Origin: a virus
Length of the DNA: 25,388 bases
Reading direction: 5' to 3' (one strand)
IMG/VR virus record: IMGVR_UViG_3300017781_000115
Location: 1 to 25,388 of that record
Below the pieces are notes generated by a model. It saw only the letters and a list, made by a program, of their open reading frames with translations, was not told the origin of the DNA and did not search any database. The position numbers and the translations under genes were made by a program. Of the stretch, positions 41 through 10,549 are shown piece by piece; position 1 is the stretch's first letter, and each line of letters opens with the position of its first letter.

Positions 41-424
41 ATGCAGACCATTATTGAAAACTCCCCCCGGTCTTCAATCAAGATTGAATCCCCCCACGTC
101 GAAATTGATTTAGATCTATCACCTTTTCTGAAGATAGATATGGTAGATACAATTCAACCTATCACTACTTCACAGACTGTTTCTACACCTGTTACTACGC
201 AGGTGAAGTACACTAGTGTTGATGGACCTTATACTCGTAAAAGAGATGGTGCATCAATCATGTACCTGAGACAGGATGAGACTGTAAGGTTCGACCCTGA
301 GACAGGAGAGATGTTCGATGACAGTAAGTCTAGAATGTTACTCTATACTCCGGAGAGAATGGAACAGTGCAAGGAGATACTATCCACTATAGGATACATC
401 TACCGTACTGTTACAACGAAGTAG
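41..424 (+). CDS. Hypothetical phage protein, 127 aa
   Basis: I do not recognise this protein. The ATG at 41 is the first possible start after an in-frame stop at 11-13, and it has an AGAGG stretch about 9 bases upstream, one of very few Shine-Dalgarno-like sites in the window. The N-terminal half is rich in Ser/Thr/Pro/Ile and looks low-complexity. The C-terminal half (about residues 60-127) is more globular, with a DPETGEMFDD segment near residues 85-95 and a helix-like stretch after it. No signal peptide or membrane segment is evident. The 5' part of the gene uses C-runs (CCCCCC) that are unusual for this AT-rich region. It is followed by a structured spacer and a strong terminator (492-550), so it probably ends a transcription unit that begins left of the window. 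Confidence 0.72.
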   Translation: MQTIIENSPRSSIKIESPHVEIDLDLSPFLKIDMVDTIQPITTSQTVSTPVTTQVKYTSVDGPYTRKRDGASIMYLRQDETVRFDPETGEMFDDSKSRMLLYTPERMEQCKEILSTIGYIYRTVTTK

Positions 425-550
425 TGGGAACTAACTATCCAGCCAGATAGAGTTCAGAAGTCATTATACACTTCTTTAATCAGTATGATACACCACTCAT
501 CCCTTGACTAAGCAACTACGGCTAAATTTGGATGAGTGGTTTCTTTTTTT
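425..550 (+). terminator. Intrinsic terminator with structured leader
   Basis: An 11-bp perfect stem pairs 492-502 (ACCACTCATCC) with 530-540 (GGATGAGTGGT) around a 27-nt loop, followed directly by TTCTTTTTTT at 541-550. Two smaller hairpins precede it: CTATC 435-439 with GATAG 446-450, and AGAAG 456-460 with CTTCT 471-475. This is a textbook rho-independent terminator with an unusually large loop. The three tandem hairpins could also form a small RNA that remains as the 3' end of the upstream transcript. Confidence 0.75.
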
Positions 551-1036: not shown

Positions 1037-1285
1037 ATGTGTGTGTATCATTCGTCTACTTGTATCTCGAATTACATTCCTATTCGTGTGTAAAACAACT
1101 CAACACTTAAAGAACTAAACGATTTAACGAAAATAAGAGTACTCTTAGACACTGTATACTCATACACCTACCATTTTAACTAACATTTTAATCATTGTTA
1201 TTACAGTATATTACTATATATATAGCCAAAGTTGTGATAACACCAAAACCGAAGAGTACAATGTGTAAACCGTACAAAAGAAACA

Positions 1286-2100: not shown

Positions 2101-2334
2101 ATGAAATCAATTTTAAAACACTTAATAGATACATTGTTTGTATCATTATTATACATCGGAGTAATAGTATTTCCATTATTTGTACTGTTAAATATCTTAG
2201 GTCCGTGTGACCTTGGTAGTGGAATAACAAACTTAGTAGCTATTATATTTGCAGTAATATTTACTATTGCGTGTAGACTAGCTATCAGAGAAGCAAGAAT
2301 TAACCATAATCGTGGTGAAAGATTCTTGTTTTAA
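2101..2334 (+). CDS. Small membrane protein with two predicted TM segments, 77 aa
   Basis: Two hydrophobic segments are visible, at about residues 10-33 (with LLYIGVIVFPLFVLL) and about residues 42-60 (with LVAIIFAVIFTIA), separated by a short Gly/Asp-rich turn and followed by a basic C-terminal tail. By the positive-inside rule the tail would be cytoplasmic, with both ends inside. Such small double-spanning proteins in phages can act in lysis, superinfection exclusion or host membrane modification, and nothing here decides between these. The start follows an A/T-rich leader without a Shine-Dalgarno motif, as expected for a Bacteroidota phage. It is the last gene before a 390-base block of structured non-coding sequence. 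Confidence 0.7.
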   Translation: MKSILKHLIDTLFVSLLYIGVIVFPLFVLLNILGPCDLGSGITNLVAIIFAVIFTIACRLAIREARINHNRGERFLF

Positions 2335-2340
2335 AAATAC

Positions 2341-2410
2341 TGGAGCTTTATCTAATTGAGTGGTCGAACTCATTAGGACAGACAGGTTTGATCTCCTGTC
2401 TGTTGCTCCG
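2341..2410 (+). ncRNA. tRNA-like three-way RNA element 1
   Basis: GGAGC (2342-2346) pairs with GCTCC (2405-2409), with an extra T-G pair outside. Inside are two hairpins with almost no linker between them. The first is CTAAT.GAGT (2352-2361) with ACTCATTAG (2368-2376), loop GGTCGA. The second is a 9-bp perfect stem, ACAGACAGG (2378-2386) with CCTGTCTGT (2395-2403), loop TTTGATCT. The GAGTGGTCGAA string is identical to D-arm sequence found in type II tRNAs (Ser/Leu), and the second loop could be read either as an anticodon loop or as a T-loop. At 70 nt with only two arms it is not a canonical tRNA. A T5 run follows at about 2418-2422. Confidence 0.5.
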
Positions 2411-2433
2411 TACGATATTTTTAATCAGAAGAA

Positions 2434-2608
2434 TTGGAGCCAGGGGCTACATTTACTAATCAGGAACGATTAGCCAATATTTATATTGGGTATGTAAAGT
2501 TGGTCACGGATTACTCTTGAATAAGAGTCCATTCTACGCATCTATAAAATTACTTTGATAGAGGCATGAATGAGTAATGTATTGATAGTAATTCGAATCC
2601 TCCGCACC
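2434..2608 (+). ncRNA. Large structured RNA element 2
   Basis: Many local stems nest here. AGCC (2438-2441) pairs with GGCT (2445-2448). TTTAC (2452-2456) with GTAAA (2494-2498) can enclose two perfect 6-bp hairpins, CTAATC/GATTAG (2456-2473, sharing base 2456) and CCAATA/TATTGG (2474-2489). ACTCTT/AAGAGT (2513-2528) competes with ATTACTC/GAGTAAT (2510-2516 with 2572-2578). The latter would enclose CATTC/GAATG (2530-2534 with 2568-2572, sharing base 2572) and GCATCTAT/ATAGAGGC (2538-2565, one mismatch). The 3' end carries a T-loop-like TTCGAAT followed by CCTCC that could pair with GGAG near 2436. No reading frame is present. Confidence 0.5.
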
Positions 2609-2624
2609 TCTTTTGATTGAATCT

Positions 2625-2691
2625 GTATGAGTCAGTAATAGTATTGCTTGGAGCCTAGGGCTTAGGGTTAACGCTATTACTAGACTTATGC
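2625..2691 (+). ncRNA. Long-stem RNA element 3
   Basis: A 17-bp helix forms between 2625-2641 (GTATGAGTCAGTAATAG) and 2674-2691, with one bulged A at 2682 and two G-U pairs. The 32-nt loop contains AGCC (2652-2655) pairing with GGCT (2659-2662). The 15-nt string TTGGAGCC-nnn-GGCT at 2648-2662 matches that at 2434-2448 apart from the three variable bases, so elements 2 and 3 share a motif. There is no T-run after the helix, so it is not an ordinary terminator. Confidence 0.52.
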
Positions 2692-2727
2692 TTAAAATAA
2701 ATGTTTAATTTAAAATAATAGAATAAA

Positions 2728-2991
2728 ATGGTAATAGATAATCATATAATATTATATTTGCTGATGTTTGTTTTTGGTGTAGTTGTGGGTATTTATATTA
2801 TGACTCAAGTAGAAGCTGAGCAGAACGATAAATTAATGACTAACATTCTTGAAATGGACGATAACATTCAGACATATAAGGAAGAAGTAGATAAGCTAAT
2901 TGTAGCTAAAAGAAATGTTGAGATAGAGCTCAAGTTATATAAAATAAAGGATGAACAGCTTAAAGAAGTGGGTAAATTCCTTGAATCATGA
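2728..2991 (+). CDS. Membrane-anchored coiled-coil protein, 87 aa
   Basis: The N terminus (about residues 5-25, with IILYLLMFVFGVVVGIYIM) is a single hydrophobic segment, and the rest (about residues 28-87) is a charged, heptad-like helix rich in Glu, Lys, Leu and Ile. This is the shape of an inner-membrane spanin or other anchored coiled-coil protein, but I see no outer-membrane lipoprotein partner nearby, so the lysis role is only one possibility. Its stop overlaps the next gene's start (ATGA at 2988), implying translational coupling. The start lies in the A/T-rich context AATAGAATAAAATGG, which is very similar to that of the reductase gene at 3536. Confidence 0.72.
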   Translation: MVIDNHIILYLLMFVFGVVVGIYIMTQVEAEQNDKLMTNILEMDDNIQTYKEEVDKLIVAKRNVEIELKLYKIKDEQLKEVGKFLES

Positions 2992-3215
2992 GTAAATATC
3001 AACATATAATCGATGAAATTTCACCTAAAAAGTGTGAAACAGTAACAAAACCAAGATCTAATTGGCGTGAAAAGGTTTATCCACCGCCAACAATCTGGGT
3101 TAGTGAAGAAACAGTAAAAAAAGAAAGAAAGTATGGCAAAAGAAAGCAAAAAAAAGAAAGAAAACAAGTGGAAAAGTTATGGTGTCCCCATTGCGGAACC
3201 ATTATCAGGAAATAA
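2988..3215 (+). CDS. Small basic protein with C-terminal zinc-knuckle half, 75 aa
   Basis: The protein is strongly basic (a Lys/Arg run at about residues 44-62) and ends with LWCPHCGTIIRK, a single CxxC knuckle typical of half a zinc ribbon. A second Cys pair is missing, so metal binding would need a dimer or a partner. It is coupled to the upstream gene through an ATGA overlap. The last 83 bases are also read in the +1 frame by the next gene. Function unknown; nucleic-acid binding is plausible from charge and the knuckle. Confidence 0.6.
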   Translation: MSKYQHIIDEISPKKCETVTKPRSNWREKVYPPPTIWVSEETVKKERKYGKRKQKKERKQVEKLWCPHCGTIIRK

Positions 3216-3348
3216 GGACTCTGCATTTTTTGATATTGACCTAGATCCTCAGCGTAAAGAGGATGAATCTTATGAAGACTATAAGATAAGACAAAAACAG
3301 GTTAAAAAAAGAATAAAAATTCATCTAAGGGGTAAGAAAGTTAACTAA
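3133..3348 (+). CDS. Small phage protein, 71 aa, overlapping start
   Basis: The frame begins inside the preceding gene and runs 133 bases beyond it. The first 15 residues are Lys-rich because the shared DNA is A-rich. The non-overlapping part is clearly protein-like: an acidic segment (FFDIDLDPQRKEDE) and then ESYEDYKIRQKQVKKRIKIHLRG. That last pattern recalls a recurrent short phage protein with an ExYExYKxRQK motif, but I cannot name the family with certainty. An internal start after the overlap is not available (no later ATG), so the ATG at 3133 is used. It ends just before a TATCTTTG promoter-like match at 3355-3362. Confidence 0.55.
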   Translation: MAKESKKKKENKWKSYGVPIAEPLSGNKDSAFFDIDLDPQRKEDESYEDYKIRQKQVKKRIKIHLRGKKVN

Positions 3349-3354
3349 TTTAGT

Positions 3355-3362
3355 TATCTTTG
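3355..3362 (+). promoter_or_regulatory. TAnnTTTG-like promoter element
   Basis: TATCTTTG fits the Bacteroidota sigma-ABfr -7 consensus TAnnTTTG. No convincing -33 TTTG is seen. It lies 36-45 bases upstream of the tRNA-like element and about 175 bases before the reductase start, so it could drive both. Confidence 0.4.
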
Positions 3363-3397
3363 CTACCCTTTTGGAAACTCAACACTACTCAAAATAC

Positions 3398-3509
3398 AAT
3401 GTATTATAGAGTAGGCAATGTTGGAATGTGCTTCAAAGAGAGAGTAACCATGGTGCTCGAAACAGAATTCTGTTTTTAGGTTCGACTCCTAGCTACTCTG
3501 TAATACATT
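3398..3509 (+). ncRNA. Type II tRNA-like element with 17-bp closing stem
   Basis: The core (3408-3500, 93 nt) has a 7-bp acceptor-like stem AGAGTAG/CTACTCT and a T-arm TTAGG-TTCGACT-CCTAG (3476-3492). A perfect palindromic variable arm lies at 3460-3475. An anticodon-like arm GAGTA/TGCTC (3442-3458) has the 7-nt loop ACCATGG, which would present CAU. A D-arm-like GCA/TGC (3415-3431) has a GG-containing 11-nt loop. Departures from a real tRNA are: no positions 8-9, a 10-nt insertion before the anticodon arm, C at position 33 and G at 37. The stem continues through a T-G pair and nine more pairs (3398-3406 with 3501-3509), giving 17 bp. It is either a degenerate tRNA or a tRNA mimic. Confidence 0.5.
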
Positions 3510-3535
3510 TATAAACATAATAAAATAGAATAAAA

Positions 3536-5389
3536 ATGGAAGTATCTAATCAGATATTGAGCGACATCGTCGTCTTTAATAAATACGCCAAGTTCCTACC
3601 CTCACTAGGTAGGAGAGAAACATTTAGTGAAATATGTAATCGTTATGGAGATATGATGATTGCTAAACATCCTCACATGGAAAAGGATATAAAAGAAGCC
3701 ATGAAAGCAGTAAAAGAAAGAAAATTATTACCTTCGATGAGGGCTATGCAATTCGCGGGAGTTGCTATAACTAAGTCAGAATCAAGGATTTATAACTGTG
3801 CGTATTTACCAATAGATGACTATAGAGCATTCTCTGAGATCATGTTCCTTTTACTAGGAGGAACAGGTGTTGGATACTCTGTACAATTCAAACACGTAAG
3901 AAATTTACCAGAAATAGTTAAACCTATGAAAACCCAAAAATATGTAATTGGGGATTCAATAGAAGGTTGGGCTGATTCTGTACGACATCTAATCGGAAGC
4001 TATCTGGGGATTAGGAAGACGAAGCCAGTTTTTGACTTCTCTGACATTCGTCCGAAAGGGTCCCGATTAGTAACAGCTGGTGGTAAAGCACCAGGACCTG
4101 AGCCACTTAAAGTGTGCTTATTTCATTTAGAAACATTATTAAACAGAAAAGAAACAGGAAGTTCTCTTACTCCCCTGGAGGTGCACGATATGGTATGTTA
4201 TATTGCCGACGCAGTGCTTGCAGGAGGTATTAGGAGAGCGGCATTGATCTCATTATTCTCAATGGATGATGAAGAGATGCTAACAAGTAAATATGGAAAT
4301 TGGTGGGAGCTTAATCCTCAACGAGGAAGGGCTAACAACAGTGCAGTAATTCGTAGACACCGCATCACTAAAGTTGAATTCAATAGGTTTTGGAAAAAAG
4401 TTAAAGAATCTAACGCTGGTGAGCCAGGTATGTATTTCACTAATAATAGTGATTATGGTACAAACCCCTGCTGTGAAATTGCTCTAAAACCATTTCAATT
4501 TTGTAATCTAACTGAGGTTAACGTTTCAAATATTGAGTCACAAGAAGATTTATCGAATCGTGTTAAACTAGCATCATTACTGGGTACTCTACAGGCTAGT
4601 TTCACGGATTTCCATTATCTTCGACCAATATGGAGAACAACAACTGAGAATGACGCCTTAATTGGTGTCGGGATGACAGGAATAGGAAGTGGTACAATTT
4701 TGAAGTATGATTTAGAATCAGCAGCGAAAGTTGCAAATGAAGCTAATGAGCACTATGCAAAATTATTAGGAGTGAATAAAGCATCGAGGGTAACTACTAT
4801 CAAACCTTCAGGTACTACGAGTTGTGTATTAGGGACATCTTCAGGAATCCATGCATGGCATAACGACTATTACATTAGACGTATGCAATGTACAAAGGAT
4901 GAGGATTTATATAAATATTTGGCCAAAGCTCATCCTGAGTTGGTAGCTGATATGAAATTAATACCAAACTCTGCAGTGATTGAGATCCCTCAAAAGGCTC
5001 CTGCTAATTCCATTTTACGACATAAAGAAACAGCTCTTGAATTACTTGAAAGGATTAAATTATTTAATCTTGATTGGGTAAGACAGGGACATCGTTCAGG
5101 TGATAATACTAACAATGTATCAGCTACTGTATCCATTAAAGAAAAAGAATGGAAAGAAGTAGGTGAGTGGATGTGGGCTAACAGAGACACATTCAATGGT
5201 TTAAGTATACTACCATACGATGGAGGATCATATACTCAAGCACCATTCGAAAACATATCAAAATCAAAATACTATTCAATGATTAATTCATTGAAAGCTA
5301 TTGACTTACGTAAAATCAAAGAATTAGATGATAATACGACGAGGAGCCAAGAAATAGCATGTGCAGGCGGGTCTTGTGAAATAGTATAA
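3536..5389 (+). CDS. nrdJ: Adenosylcobalamin-dependent class II ribonucleotide reductase
   Basis: This enzyme reduces ribonucleotides to deoxyribonucleotides using a thiyl radical made with adenosylcobalamin (vitamin B12), feeding phage DNA synthesis. The signature residues of the monomeric Lactobacillus-type RTPR are all present: a redox Cys at 88 (YNCAYLP), NPCCEI at 310-315 (thiyl-radical Cys 312, Glu 314), the second redox Cys 323 exactly 11 residues later, the KPSGTTSC loop near residue 425, and a C-terminal CAGGSC pair (609 and 614) that re-reduces the active site. At 617 aa it is shorter than the roughly 740-aa Lactobacillus enzyme; the loss lies mostly between Cys 88 and Cys 312. B12 dependence means the enzyme works without oxygen but needs cobalamin from the host. 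It follows a tRNA-like RNA, and its leader AATAGAATAAAAATGG lacks a Shine-Dalgarno motif. Confidence 0.95.
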   Translation: MEVSNQILSDIVVFNKYAKFLPSLGRRETFSEICNRYGDMMIAKHPHMEKDIKEAMKAVKERKLLPSMRAMQFAGVAITKSESRIYNCAYLPIDDYRAFSEIMFLLLGGTGVGYSVQFKHVRNLPEIVKPMKTQKYVIGDSIEGWADSVRHLIGSYLGIRKTKPVFDFSDIRPKGSRLVTAGGKAPGPEPLKVCLFHLETLLNRKETGSSLTPLEVHDMVCYIADAVLAGGIRRAALISLFSMDDEEMLTSKYGNWWELNPQRGRANNSAVIRRHRITKVEFNRFWKKVKESNAGEPGMYFTNNSDYGTNPCCEIALKPFQFCNLTEVNVSNIESQEDLSNRVKLASLLGTLQASFTDFHYLRPIWRTTTENDALIGVGMTGIGSGTILKYDLESAAKVANEANEHYAKLLGVNKASRVTTIKPSGTTSCVLGTSSGIHAWHNDYYIRRMQCTKDEDLYKYLAKAHPELVADMKLIPNSAVIEIPQKAPANSILRHKETALELLERIKLFNLDWVRQGHRSGDNTNNVSATVSIKEKEWKEVGEWMWANRDTFNGLSILPYDGGSYTQAPFENISKSKYYSMINSLKAIDLRKIKELDDNTTRSQEIACAGGSCEIV

Positions 5390-9243: not shown

Positions 9244-9695
9244 AGACAATACTAGAAGCAAAACAATATCTAAGAGATAACTTTAAAACCGGAGCTACGT
9301 GCCCGTGTTGTAATAAATATGTAAAAGCATATAAACGTAAATTAAATTCAGGTATAGCTCGAGCATTGATTATTATGTATAAACTTGGAGCAGTTAACAA
9401 GAAATATATACATGTACAAAATGAATTTGCTAAACTTAAACTAAGAGCAACAACTATGGATTATGCATATGCAGAAAAATGGTCGTTAATTGAAGACGGT
9501 GATGAATTAGGTACTTGGACTTTAACAGATAAAGGTGTTGATTTTGTTAACAATAGAACTGTTTTACCTGATTATTGTTTAGTATATAATGGTAATGTTT
9601 ATGGCTGGAGTAAAAAGCTAATAAATATTGATACTGCTTTAACTATTAAATATGATTATGATGAAATGATGGATATAGGAATATTCCCACTATGA
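9240..9695 (+). CDS. Cys-motif phage protein, possible DNA binding, 151 aa
   Basis: The N-terminal segment carries TCPCCNKYVKAYKRKL (about residues 19-35), a single CxxC knuckle followed by a basic stretch, then a helix-rich region (about residues 36-85) and GTWTLTDKGVDFV, whose pattern resembles the beta-wing end of winged-helix domains. The sequence suggests a nucleic-acid-binding protein, but I cannot assign a named family. It is coupled at both ends by ATGA overlaps (9240 and 9692), placing it in one operon with the zinc-ribbon and radical SAM proteins. Confidence 0.72.
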   Translation: MKTILEAKQYLRDNFKTGATCPCCNKYVKAYKRKLNSGIARALIIMYKLGAVNKKYIHVQNEFAKLKLRATTMDYAYAEKWSLIEDGDELGTWTLTDKGVDFVNNRTVLPDYCLVYNGNVYGWSKKLINIDTALTIKYDYDEMMDIGIFPL

Positions 9696-10549
9696 AAGTA
9701 AAGAAAGTTAAGCGAAAGTCTATGATAATAAGACCTTCGGGAAGATCAACAGATTTTATTAGCCCTTCATTTGGTTATGGTTGTTTATATAACTGTTCTT
9801 ATTGTTATATGAAACGTCATCAACCTGAAGGATTATCTATTGCTGTAAATGAGCATGATATATTAACTGCTGTTAACAATCATGCATTCTTTACACCAGT
9901 AGAAAAACCTAATCAAACTCATCCTACTCTGACTAGTTATGATATTAGTTGTAACGAAGATTTTGCTCTTCATGCTAAACATCATAACTGGAAAAGAATA
10001 TTTGAGTTCTTCAGAGATCATCCTGTGGCTATGGGTAGCTTTGCTACTAAATATGTAAACCCTATGTTGTTAGAGTTTAATCCTCTAAACAAAATACGGA
10101 TTAGATTTAGTTTAATGCCACAGCATATGTCTGACTTACACGAACCTCATACTACTAAAATAATTGATAGAATAAAAGCTATTAATACATTTATAGATGC
10201 GGGGTACGATGTGCATGTTAATTTTAGTCCAGTTATATTATATAAAAACTGGAAACAAGATTATACAGATTTATTCAATATGCTTAATGATTATGTAGAA
10301 CATAAAGATTGCGTCCTTGCGGAAGTTATCTTTCTAACTCATAATGAATCTAAGCATATAAAGAATATGGAGAATCATCCTGAGACTGAGAAACATCTAT
10401 GGGTACCTAAATTACAAGAAGCTAAAACTTCACAGTATGGTGGTACAAACTATAGATATAAATTAGGACTTAAGAGAAATTATATTAACCAATTTGTAGA
10501 ACTCCACAATAGTATAGTACCGTGGAATACAATTAGATACATATTTTAA
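9692..10549 (+). CDS. Radical SAM protein of the spore-photoproduct-lyase-like family
   Basis: C31-x3-C35-x2-C38 (CLYNCSYC) binds the [4Fe-4S] cluster that cleaves S-adenosylmethionine. Downstream are features shared with SPL-like proteins: a RIRFSLMP strand near residue 145, EPHTTKIIDRIKAI (about 157-170), a DAGYDVHVNFSPVI segment, and a C-terminal PWNTIRYIF. Length (285 aa) is within the usual range for this group. Characterised SPL reverses a thymine-dimer photoproduct in spore DNA. Phage relatives might repair or modify DNA, but the substrate here is unknown. It is coupled by ATGA to two Cys-rich small proteins, which hints at a joint pathway. Confidence is high for radical SAM and moderate for the SPL-like label. 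Confidence 0.88.
   Translation: MKVKKVKRKSMIIRPSGRSTDFISPSFGYGCLYNCSYCYMKRHQPEGLSIAVNEHDILTAVNNHAFFTPVEKPNQTHPTLTSYDISCNEDFALHAKHHNWKRIFEFFRDHPVAMGSFATKYVNPMLLEFNPLNKIRIRFSLMPQHMSDLHEPHTTKIIDRIKAINTFIDAGYDVHVNFSPVILYKNWKQDYTDLFNMLNDYVEHKDCVLAEVIFLTHNESKHIKNMENHPETEKHLWVPKLQEAKTSQYGGTNYRYKLGLKRNYINQFVELHNSIVPWNTIRYIF

Follow-up and report, generated by a model that had tools for sequence, protein, structure and literature searches.

Conserved folded RNAs of an uncultured bacterial virus group match no catalogued family

The locus and its relatives

The window analysed here, a 25 kb virus record (25,388 nucleotides), carries four non-coding elements in two intergenic intervals: elements 1-3 lie between an open reading frame (ORF) ending at 2334 and one starting at 2728, and element 4 lies between an ORF ending at 3348 and a ribonucleotide reductase (RNR) gene starting at 3536 (Table 1). 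An earlier note on this DNA had placed four non-coding elements here; their positions were confirmed and their limits refined. Against TIGR02505 the RNR scores 263 bits, below that family's cut-off of 340 bits. The genes flanking elements 1-3 (2101-2334 and 2728-2991) encode a small membrane protein and a membrane/coiled-coil protein with no family matches, and by size and layout could be holin and spanin genes.

Table 1. Features of the two intergenic intervals and of the gene that follows, in window positions.
Feature	Positions	Strand	Evidence or remark
Element 1, three-way-junction RNA	2338-2412	+	Folding z = -5.45
Element 2, branched RNA of ~208 nt	2416-2623	+	Covariation; covariance model R2
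Element 3, hairpin with 18-bp conserved stem (GTATGAGTCAGTAATAGT../..GCTATTACTAGACTTATGC) and variable top	2625-2691	+	Directly after element 2
Terminator-like hairpin (GGGTAAGAAAGTTAACTAA/TTAGTTATCTTTGCTACCC), then TTTT	3326-3373	+	Hairpin here in 12/12 family sequences
Tag CTCAACACTA and strand CTACTC..AATACA	3378-3396	+	In 10/10 homologues
Element 4, tRNA-like candidate leader	3397-3508	+	Place before RNR; two-sided changes; tRNA model 21.3 bits in L087
Class II (adenosylcobalamin-dependent) RNR gene	3536-5389	+	phrog_367, E 2e-129; Pfam RNR-II insertion domain

The window is almost identical to one end of the 87,235-bp contig L004 (>99.8% over 6956 bp). The DNA polymerase gene is split across both ends of L004 (L162/L163), so this contig is probably a circularly permuted, near-complete genome. 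Four differences from L004 are crowded into window positions 73-79, seven bases that belong to an inverted repeat (TCTTCAATCAAGATTGAA); the pattern resembles the inversion of a short segment. Among annotated phages, the window's DNA polymerase finds its best matches, with ~27-32% identity, in crAss-like phages and similar phages of the human gut, which suggests a putative Bacteroidota host. The window had no DNA-level match among annotated phage genomes, and a search with the window and the intergenic stretch against annotated phages gave nothing convincing. The only relatives found were uncultured IMG/VR contigs (L083/L085, which are one contig, L086, L087, L088, L089, L090, L091, L092, L093, L094 and L095), in which the RNR is 87-96% identical to that of the window and the flanking DNA mostly ~78-88%. 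Homologues are few, with 8-10 distinct sequences for each element.

Several other features of these genomes were recorded. Contig L154, whose DNA polymerase is 84% identical to that of the window, has a genuine tRNA-Arg (TCT) at 4059-4133, and the other family contigs show only tRNA-Met. A homologue of the spore photoproduct lyase family (radical SAM) is encoded in the phage at window positions 9692-10549. Window positions 422-550, following the gene at 41-424, are nearly identical in L083 although their flanks are ~82% alike; the stretch ends with the hairpin GGATGAGTGG and a T-run and looks like a conserved non-coding RNA or terminator region. A repeated block, TTTATTTAGATCYAWGACCTTTACT, stands behind terminator-like hairpins at 866-890 and 1002-1026 (0 expected by chance) and is possibly a phage promoter.

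The strong foldability that had been claimed for all four elements holds for elements 1, 3 and 4 (z = -5.5, -5.8 and -4.1 against dinucleotide shuffles) but is weak in element 2 (z = -1.7), the entire stretch 2335-2700 reaching z = -5.8. Values down to z = -5 also occur in some of this contig's coding windows, so folding energy alone is nothing special here, and sliding-window folding z-scores were set aside as uninformative. None of the elements fits a canonical cloverleaf, as had been proposed: ARAGORN found no tRNA gene in the window and none at element 4 in the homologues, and Rfam 15 at the gathering threshold returned no match to elements 1-4 in the window and only a tRNA-Met gene in 11 homologous loci. 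ARAGORN likewise reported no tmRNA in the window or the homologous loci, and the Rfam cobalamin riboswitch model had no match over 2320-3540 even at E up to 10. An identity as Y RNA was rejected, since a search of three family contigs (86-89 kb) for the gene of its Ro60 (TROVE) partner, PF05731, gave no match. No paralogues of the elements were seen elsewhere in contigs of 21-89 kb, and no prior report of these RNAs was found in the open-access literature by title and abstract. With foldability weak or non-specific and no ARAGORN, Rfam or tRNA-model match in the window, the case rests on the homologues.

Elements 1 to 3 and the variable slot

Element 2 is built of three helices, P1 (2422-2432/2609-2619), P2 (2440-2443/2500-2503 plus an inner helix, capped by a hairpin at 2456-2473 with an AGGAAC loop at 2462-2467) and P3 (2508-2520/2582-2594, enclosing a variable region). 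All three covary: two-sided changes occur in 16 of 32 pairs and amount to 30 cells against 10 in shuffles, a level matched by 0/500 shuffles. Adding L148 gave a similar result, in an alignment that was fitted to the model and so leans towards it. The covariance model R2 also matches the L093 contig (E 8e-25), a sequence absent from its building. The motif TTCGAAT (2592-2598), earlier taken as T-loop-like, was rejected as such: it forms no hairpin loop, and its first three letters are the 3' end of P3.

In element 3, 98.9% of alignment cells are paired, two-sided changes are found at three pairs and the covariation score is again matched by 0/500 shuffles; outside the family its pattern gave only chance matches in coding sequence (L130-L137). 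Elements 2 and 3 are without tRNA features. Depending on the phage, the gene 3' of element 3 encodes either a small membrane/coiled-coil protein or a lipoprotein-like protein, and this difference means that the RNA of elements 2 and 3 is not tied to one gene. Taken together, the two elements make up ~280 nt of structured RNA, which is probably a free-standing non-coding RNA.

Element 1 has a closing stem (TAC-GGAGC/GCTCC-GTA), a hairpin CTAATTGAGT/ACTCATTAG and a second hairpin ACAGACAGG-TTTGATCT-CCTGTCTGT; the motif GAGTGGTCGAA lies at 2358, and a T-loop-like hairpin loop is the most that it offers as a tRNA feature. It occupies a slot between the gene for a 77-aa membrane protein and element 2 whose content differs among related phages. 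In L090 and L091 the slot contains almost nothing; in L083, L086, L087, L088, L095 and the L093 contig it is filled with different sequence, which folds well in L087 and L088 (z = -4.0 and -3.2) and poorly in L086 and L095 (z = -0.8 and -1.4). One distant look-alike of element 1, a segment of L095, shares the three-way architecture and the TTTGATCN hairpin loop; two sequences, window and L095, are too few for a covariation claim. The L093 contig has a pair of similar RNAs with closed stems (AATAAGGTACAGG..CCTGCTAAGTT..CAGCCTTATT; L148 714-765 and 1103-1176) in its slot ahead of element 2, which suggests that RNA cassettes were duplicated.

Element 4, a tRNA-like structure before the RNR gene

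Element 4 ends 27 nt before the RNR gene. It comprises an acceptor-like helix AGAGTAG/CTACTCT of 7 bp that is extended to ~16 bp, a D-arm GCA-ATGTTGGAATG-TGC, an anticodon-like hairpin, a variable arm AACAG/CTGTT and a T-arm TAGG-TTCGACT-CCTA. Of the two T-loop-like motifs pointed out earlier, it is TTCGACT (3481-3487) that forms the loop of a T-arm-like hairpin. All 10 homologues have the D-loop GG and a T-arm with a TTCRANY loop closed by GG/CC. Element 4 has the same place in 12/12 related contigs. Its D-arm 21-mer AGGCAATGTTGGAATGTGCTT is present in 12 contigs and is unchanged in phages whose neighbouring DNA is ~78-88% identical.

Circularity was avoided by an independent search with the RNR start-codon region, element 4 being left out of the query. 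Each returned contig with a family RNR has element 4 before the ATG, with the same 21-mer; about 20 contigs with an RNR ~60% identical and the same start motif are without it. The covariance model R1, run on 100 sources, finds element 4 in every family contig and in no outgroup, as a single copy per genome with no paralogue; a weak R1 match in L154 proved to be that contig's ordinary tRNA-Arg and was discarded. R1 scores are 114-131 bits on the plus strand and 25-36 bits on the minus strand, which shows that the plus-strand RNA is what is conserved. An 18-mer of element 4 had four matches among 84,980 genomes, about the chance expectation, all without the surrounding structure.

Across the alignment of element 4, 88.6% of cells pair, and the covariation score is matched by 0/500 shuffles. 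Two-sided changes fall at five pairs, two in the acceptor-like extension (columns 10-110 and 12-108), two in the variable arm and one in the T-stem, where the outer pair alternates compensatorily between AU and UA. The anticodon-like helix is misaligned by one column in most rows; read by row, it is GAGTA/TGCTC or GAGTA/TACTC in 10/10. The D-arm and T-loop are invariant, and covariation neither supports nor contradicts them or an elbow between them.

The tRNA hallmarks that had been described for several of the elements hold for element 4; elements 2 and 3 have none, and element 1 has at most the T-loop-like hairpin loop. With the L087 copy, the Rfam tRNA model (RF00005) aligns acceptor, D-arm and T-arm and scores 21.3 bits (E 0.022), which falls short of the cut-off of 29 bits; at the L088 copy no tRNA model appears, and at the window's own copy only tRNA-Sec does, at 17.4 bits. 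The 7-bp acceptor-like helix, D-loop GG, variable arm and TTCGANT T-arm resemble a type II tRNA with a long variable arm. Element 4 is tRNA-like, but it is not a tRNA gene. There is no consistent 7-nt anticodon loop (6 nt, TCATGG or TCCGGG, in 7/10 homologues; 7 nt in the window, L085 and L088), the U33 position holds C, G or A, the anticodon position changes from CATG to CCGG in L093, CCA is missing, and the acceptor helix runs ~9 bp further into both flanks.

The terminator-like hairpin upstream of element 4 ends in CCCTTTT or similar; TAtcTTTG at ~3355 was dropped as a Bacteroidota -7 box because it is part of the 3' arm of this hairpin. Between hairpin and element 4, the tag is adjoined by the strand CTACTC..AATACA. 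In 10/10 homologues this strand can base-pair with the 5' acceptor strand, TGTATT..GAGTAG, at -6.5 to -9.6 kcal/mol, only marginally better than shuffled upstream strands, and may form an alternative hairpin. The tag CTCAACACTA also stands upstream of the gene at 1286, and the variant searched occurs at one or two places per genome. In the form ACTCAACACT it lies at window positions 1098-1108 and 3377-3387, and in most family members it precedes two conserved transcription units that are separate from each other.

Interpretation

All four elements are genuine RNA structures, but they fall into three kinds. The proposal of the earlier note that they form a single undescribed family of tRNA mimics does not hold, since elements 2 and 3 have non-tRNA folds of their own and element 4 is fixed before one gene. 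Its argument for selection on structure, and not mere tRNA erosion, is upheld for elements 2, 3 and 4 by the compensatory changes found in related phages. The opposite reading, that the elements are tRNA genes in decay or inverted repeats that arose by chance in AT-rich DNA between genes, is very improbable. It would agree with a foldability that is not unusual in the contig, with the lack of a tRNA-finder or Rfam match at cut-off and, for element 1, with the single distant look-alike; for elements 2-4 it is already contradicted by covariation, the compensatory changes lying far above both shuffles and slid controls, and the invariant 21-nt D-arm stretch amid diverged neighbouring DNA is a further point against it.

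We give about an even chance to a joint reading in which the B12-dependent RNR mRNA has element 4 as a 5' leader that derives from or mimics a tRNA and acts in cis, and elements 2 and 3 are a non-coding RNA beside the variable slot. Three observations speak for a leader acting in cis: the fixed place just before RNR, the conservation of the plus strand and that of the elbow sequences. What the data establish is the structure with its covariation, the lineage and the constant association with the gene; transcription, the tertiary elbow, switching and an effect on translation are inferred. In such a leader, once transcribed, the D-loop GG and the T-loop TTCGANT would pair as a tRNA-like elbow, the ~16-bp acceptor-like helix would clamp that elbow just before the RNR start codon, and the structure, lying within the mRNA, would raise or gate RNR translation. 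The competing upstream hairpin, by capturing the 5' strand of the acceptor, could provide an off state. Element 4 would thereby probably tune the amount of RNR made. Elements 2 and 3 would adjoin a slot that other structured RNAs occupy in related phages, and element 1 would be one RNA of this sort. A variant of this scheme, on balance unlikely, makes element 4 a tRNA-derived leader of riboswitch type that senses a metabolite, a tRNA-binding protein or the state of the ribosome through the choice between acceptor helix and upstream hairpin, and makes elements 1-3 a locus that collects and exchanges structured non-coding RNAs acting on host translation.

Two further readings of element 4 were weighed against the cis-acting leader. 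It might be cut from its transcript and act in trans as a processed tRNA mimic, either a ribosome binder or a decoy that occupies host nucleases or tRNA-binding enzymes, which the tRNA-like acceptor, D-arm and T-arm and the invariance of the 21-nt stretch across homologues would suit. We consider this improbable: the element keeps a constant distance before the same gene and occurs nowhere else in the genome, the acceptor helix with its two-sided changes continues into both flanks so that tRNA-like ends are not exposed, and the anticodon-like loop varies in size and sequence. A fixed site before one gene is easier to reconcile with a leader in cis than with a decoy in trans for tRNA nucleases or synthetases. 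Quite unlikely, too, is an element for mRNA processing or stability, cut by RNase P or RNase Z or shielding the 5' end of the RNR mRNA with its closing helix. Folds resembling tRNA are known RNase P substrates, and the long, stable closing helix right behind a terminator-like hairpin would be in keeping with such a role, but the acceptor extension would be expected to hinder RNase P at its usual site. One such substrate is reported to be mascRNA (PMC11693755).

Among known systems, the large structured phage RNAs GOLLD and ROOL are, like elements 2 and 3, orphan and strongly covarying RNAs of phage genomes, but elements 2 and 3 are far smaller (~280 nt) and have no Rfam match at the gathering threshold; the GOLLD model at the L088 copy of element 4 gave 8.7 bits against 150. 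Leaders of S15 and thrS type imitate another RNA before the gene that they control. Element 4 resembles them as a leader before a gene that it possibly controls, and differs in that no autoregulating RNA-binding protein has been identified for it. Nor is RNR known to bind tRNA-like RNA. Close in architecture is the azaaromatic-responsive yjdF riboswitch, whose aptamer is tRNA-like and which acts in cis on translation (PMC9142559). It shares with element 4 the tRNA-like fold and a place upstream of the start codon, in what would here too be a 5' leader; its D-loop/T-loop pair and its alternative pairing as off state have putative counterparts in the conserved loops of element 4 and in the upstream hairpin. 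The same work gives a 2- to 6.3-fold rise of in vitro translation for leaders into which authentic tRNAs were grafted (PMC9142559). Unlike yjdF, element 4 belongs to a different gene and lineage, carries a variable arm in addition, is closed by a far longer helix, and is without a known ligand or a recognised Shine-Dalgarno-like site; the Rfam yjdF model was absent among matches up to E 10 over 2320-3540 and at element 4 of L087 and L088.

For tRNA-like mRNA leaders yjdF offers a well-studied bacterial precedent, and it took biophysics to recognise its likeness to tRNA. The model built here allows searches for the ~280-nt RNA of elements 2 and 3, an orphan with strong covariation, and further structured RNAs may be sought in the neighbouring slot, whose RNAs differ between phages. 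If our reading of element 4 is true, a phage tRNA-like leader before the phage's own RNR would link tRNA mimicry to the control of nucleotide supply during infection.
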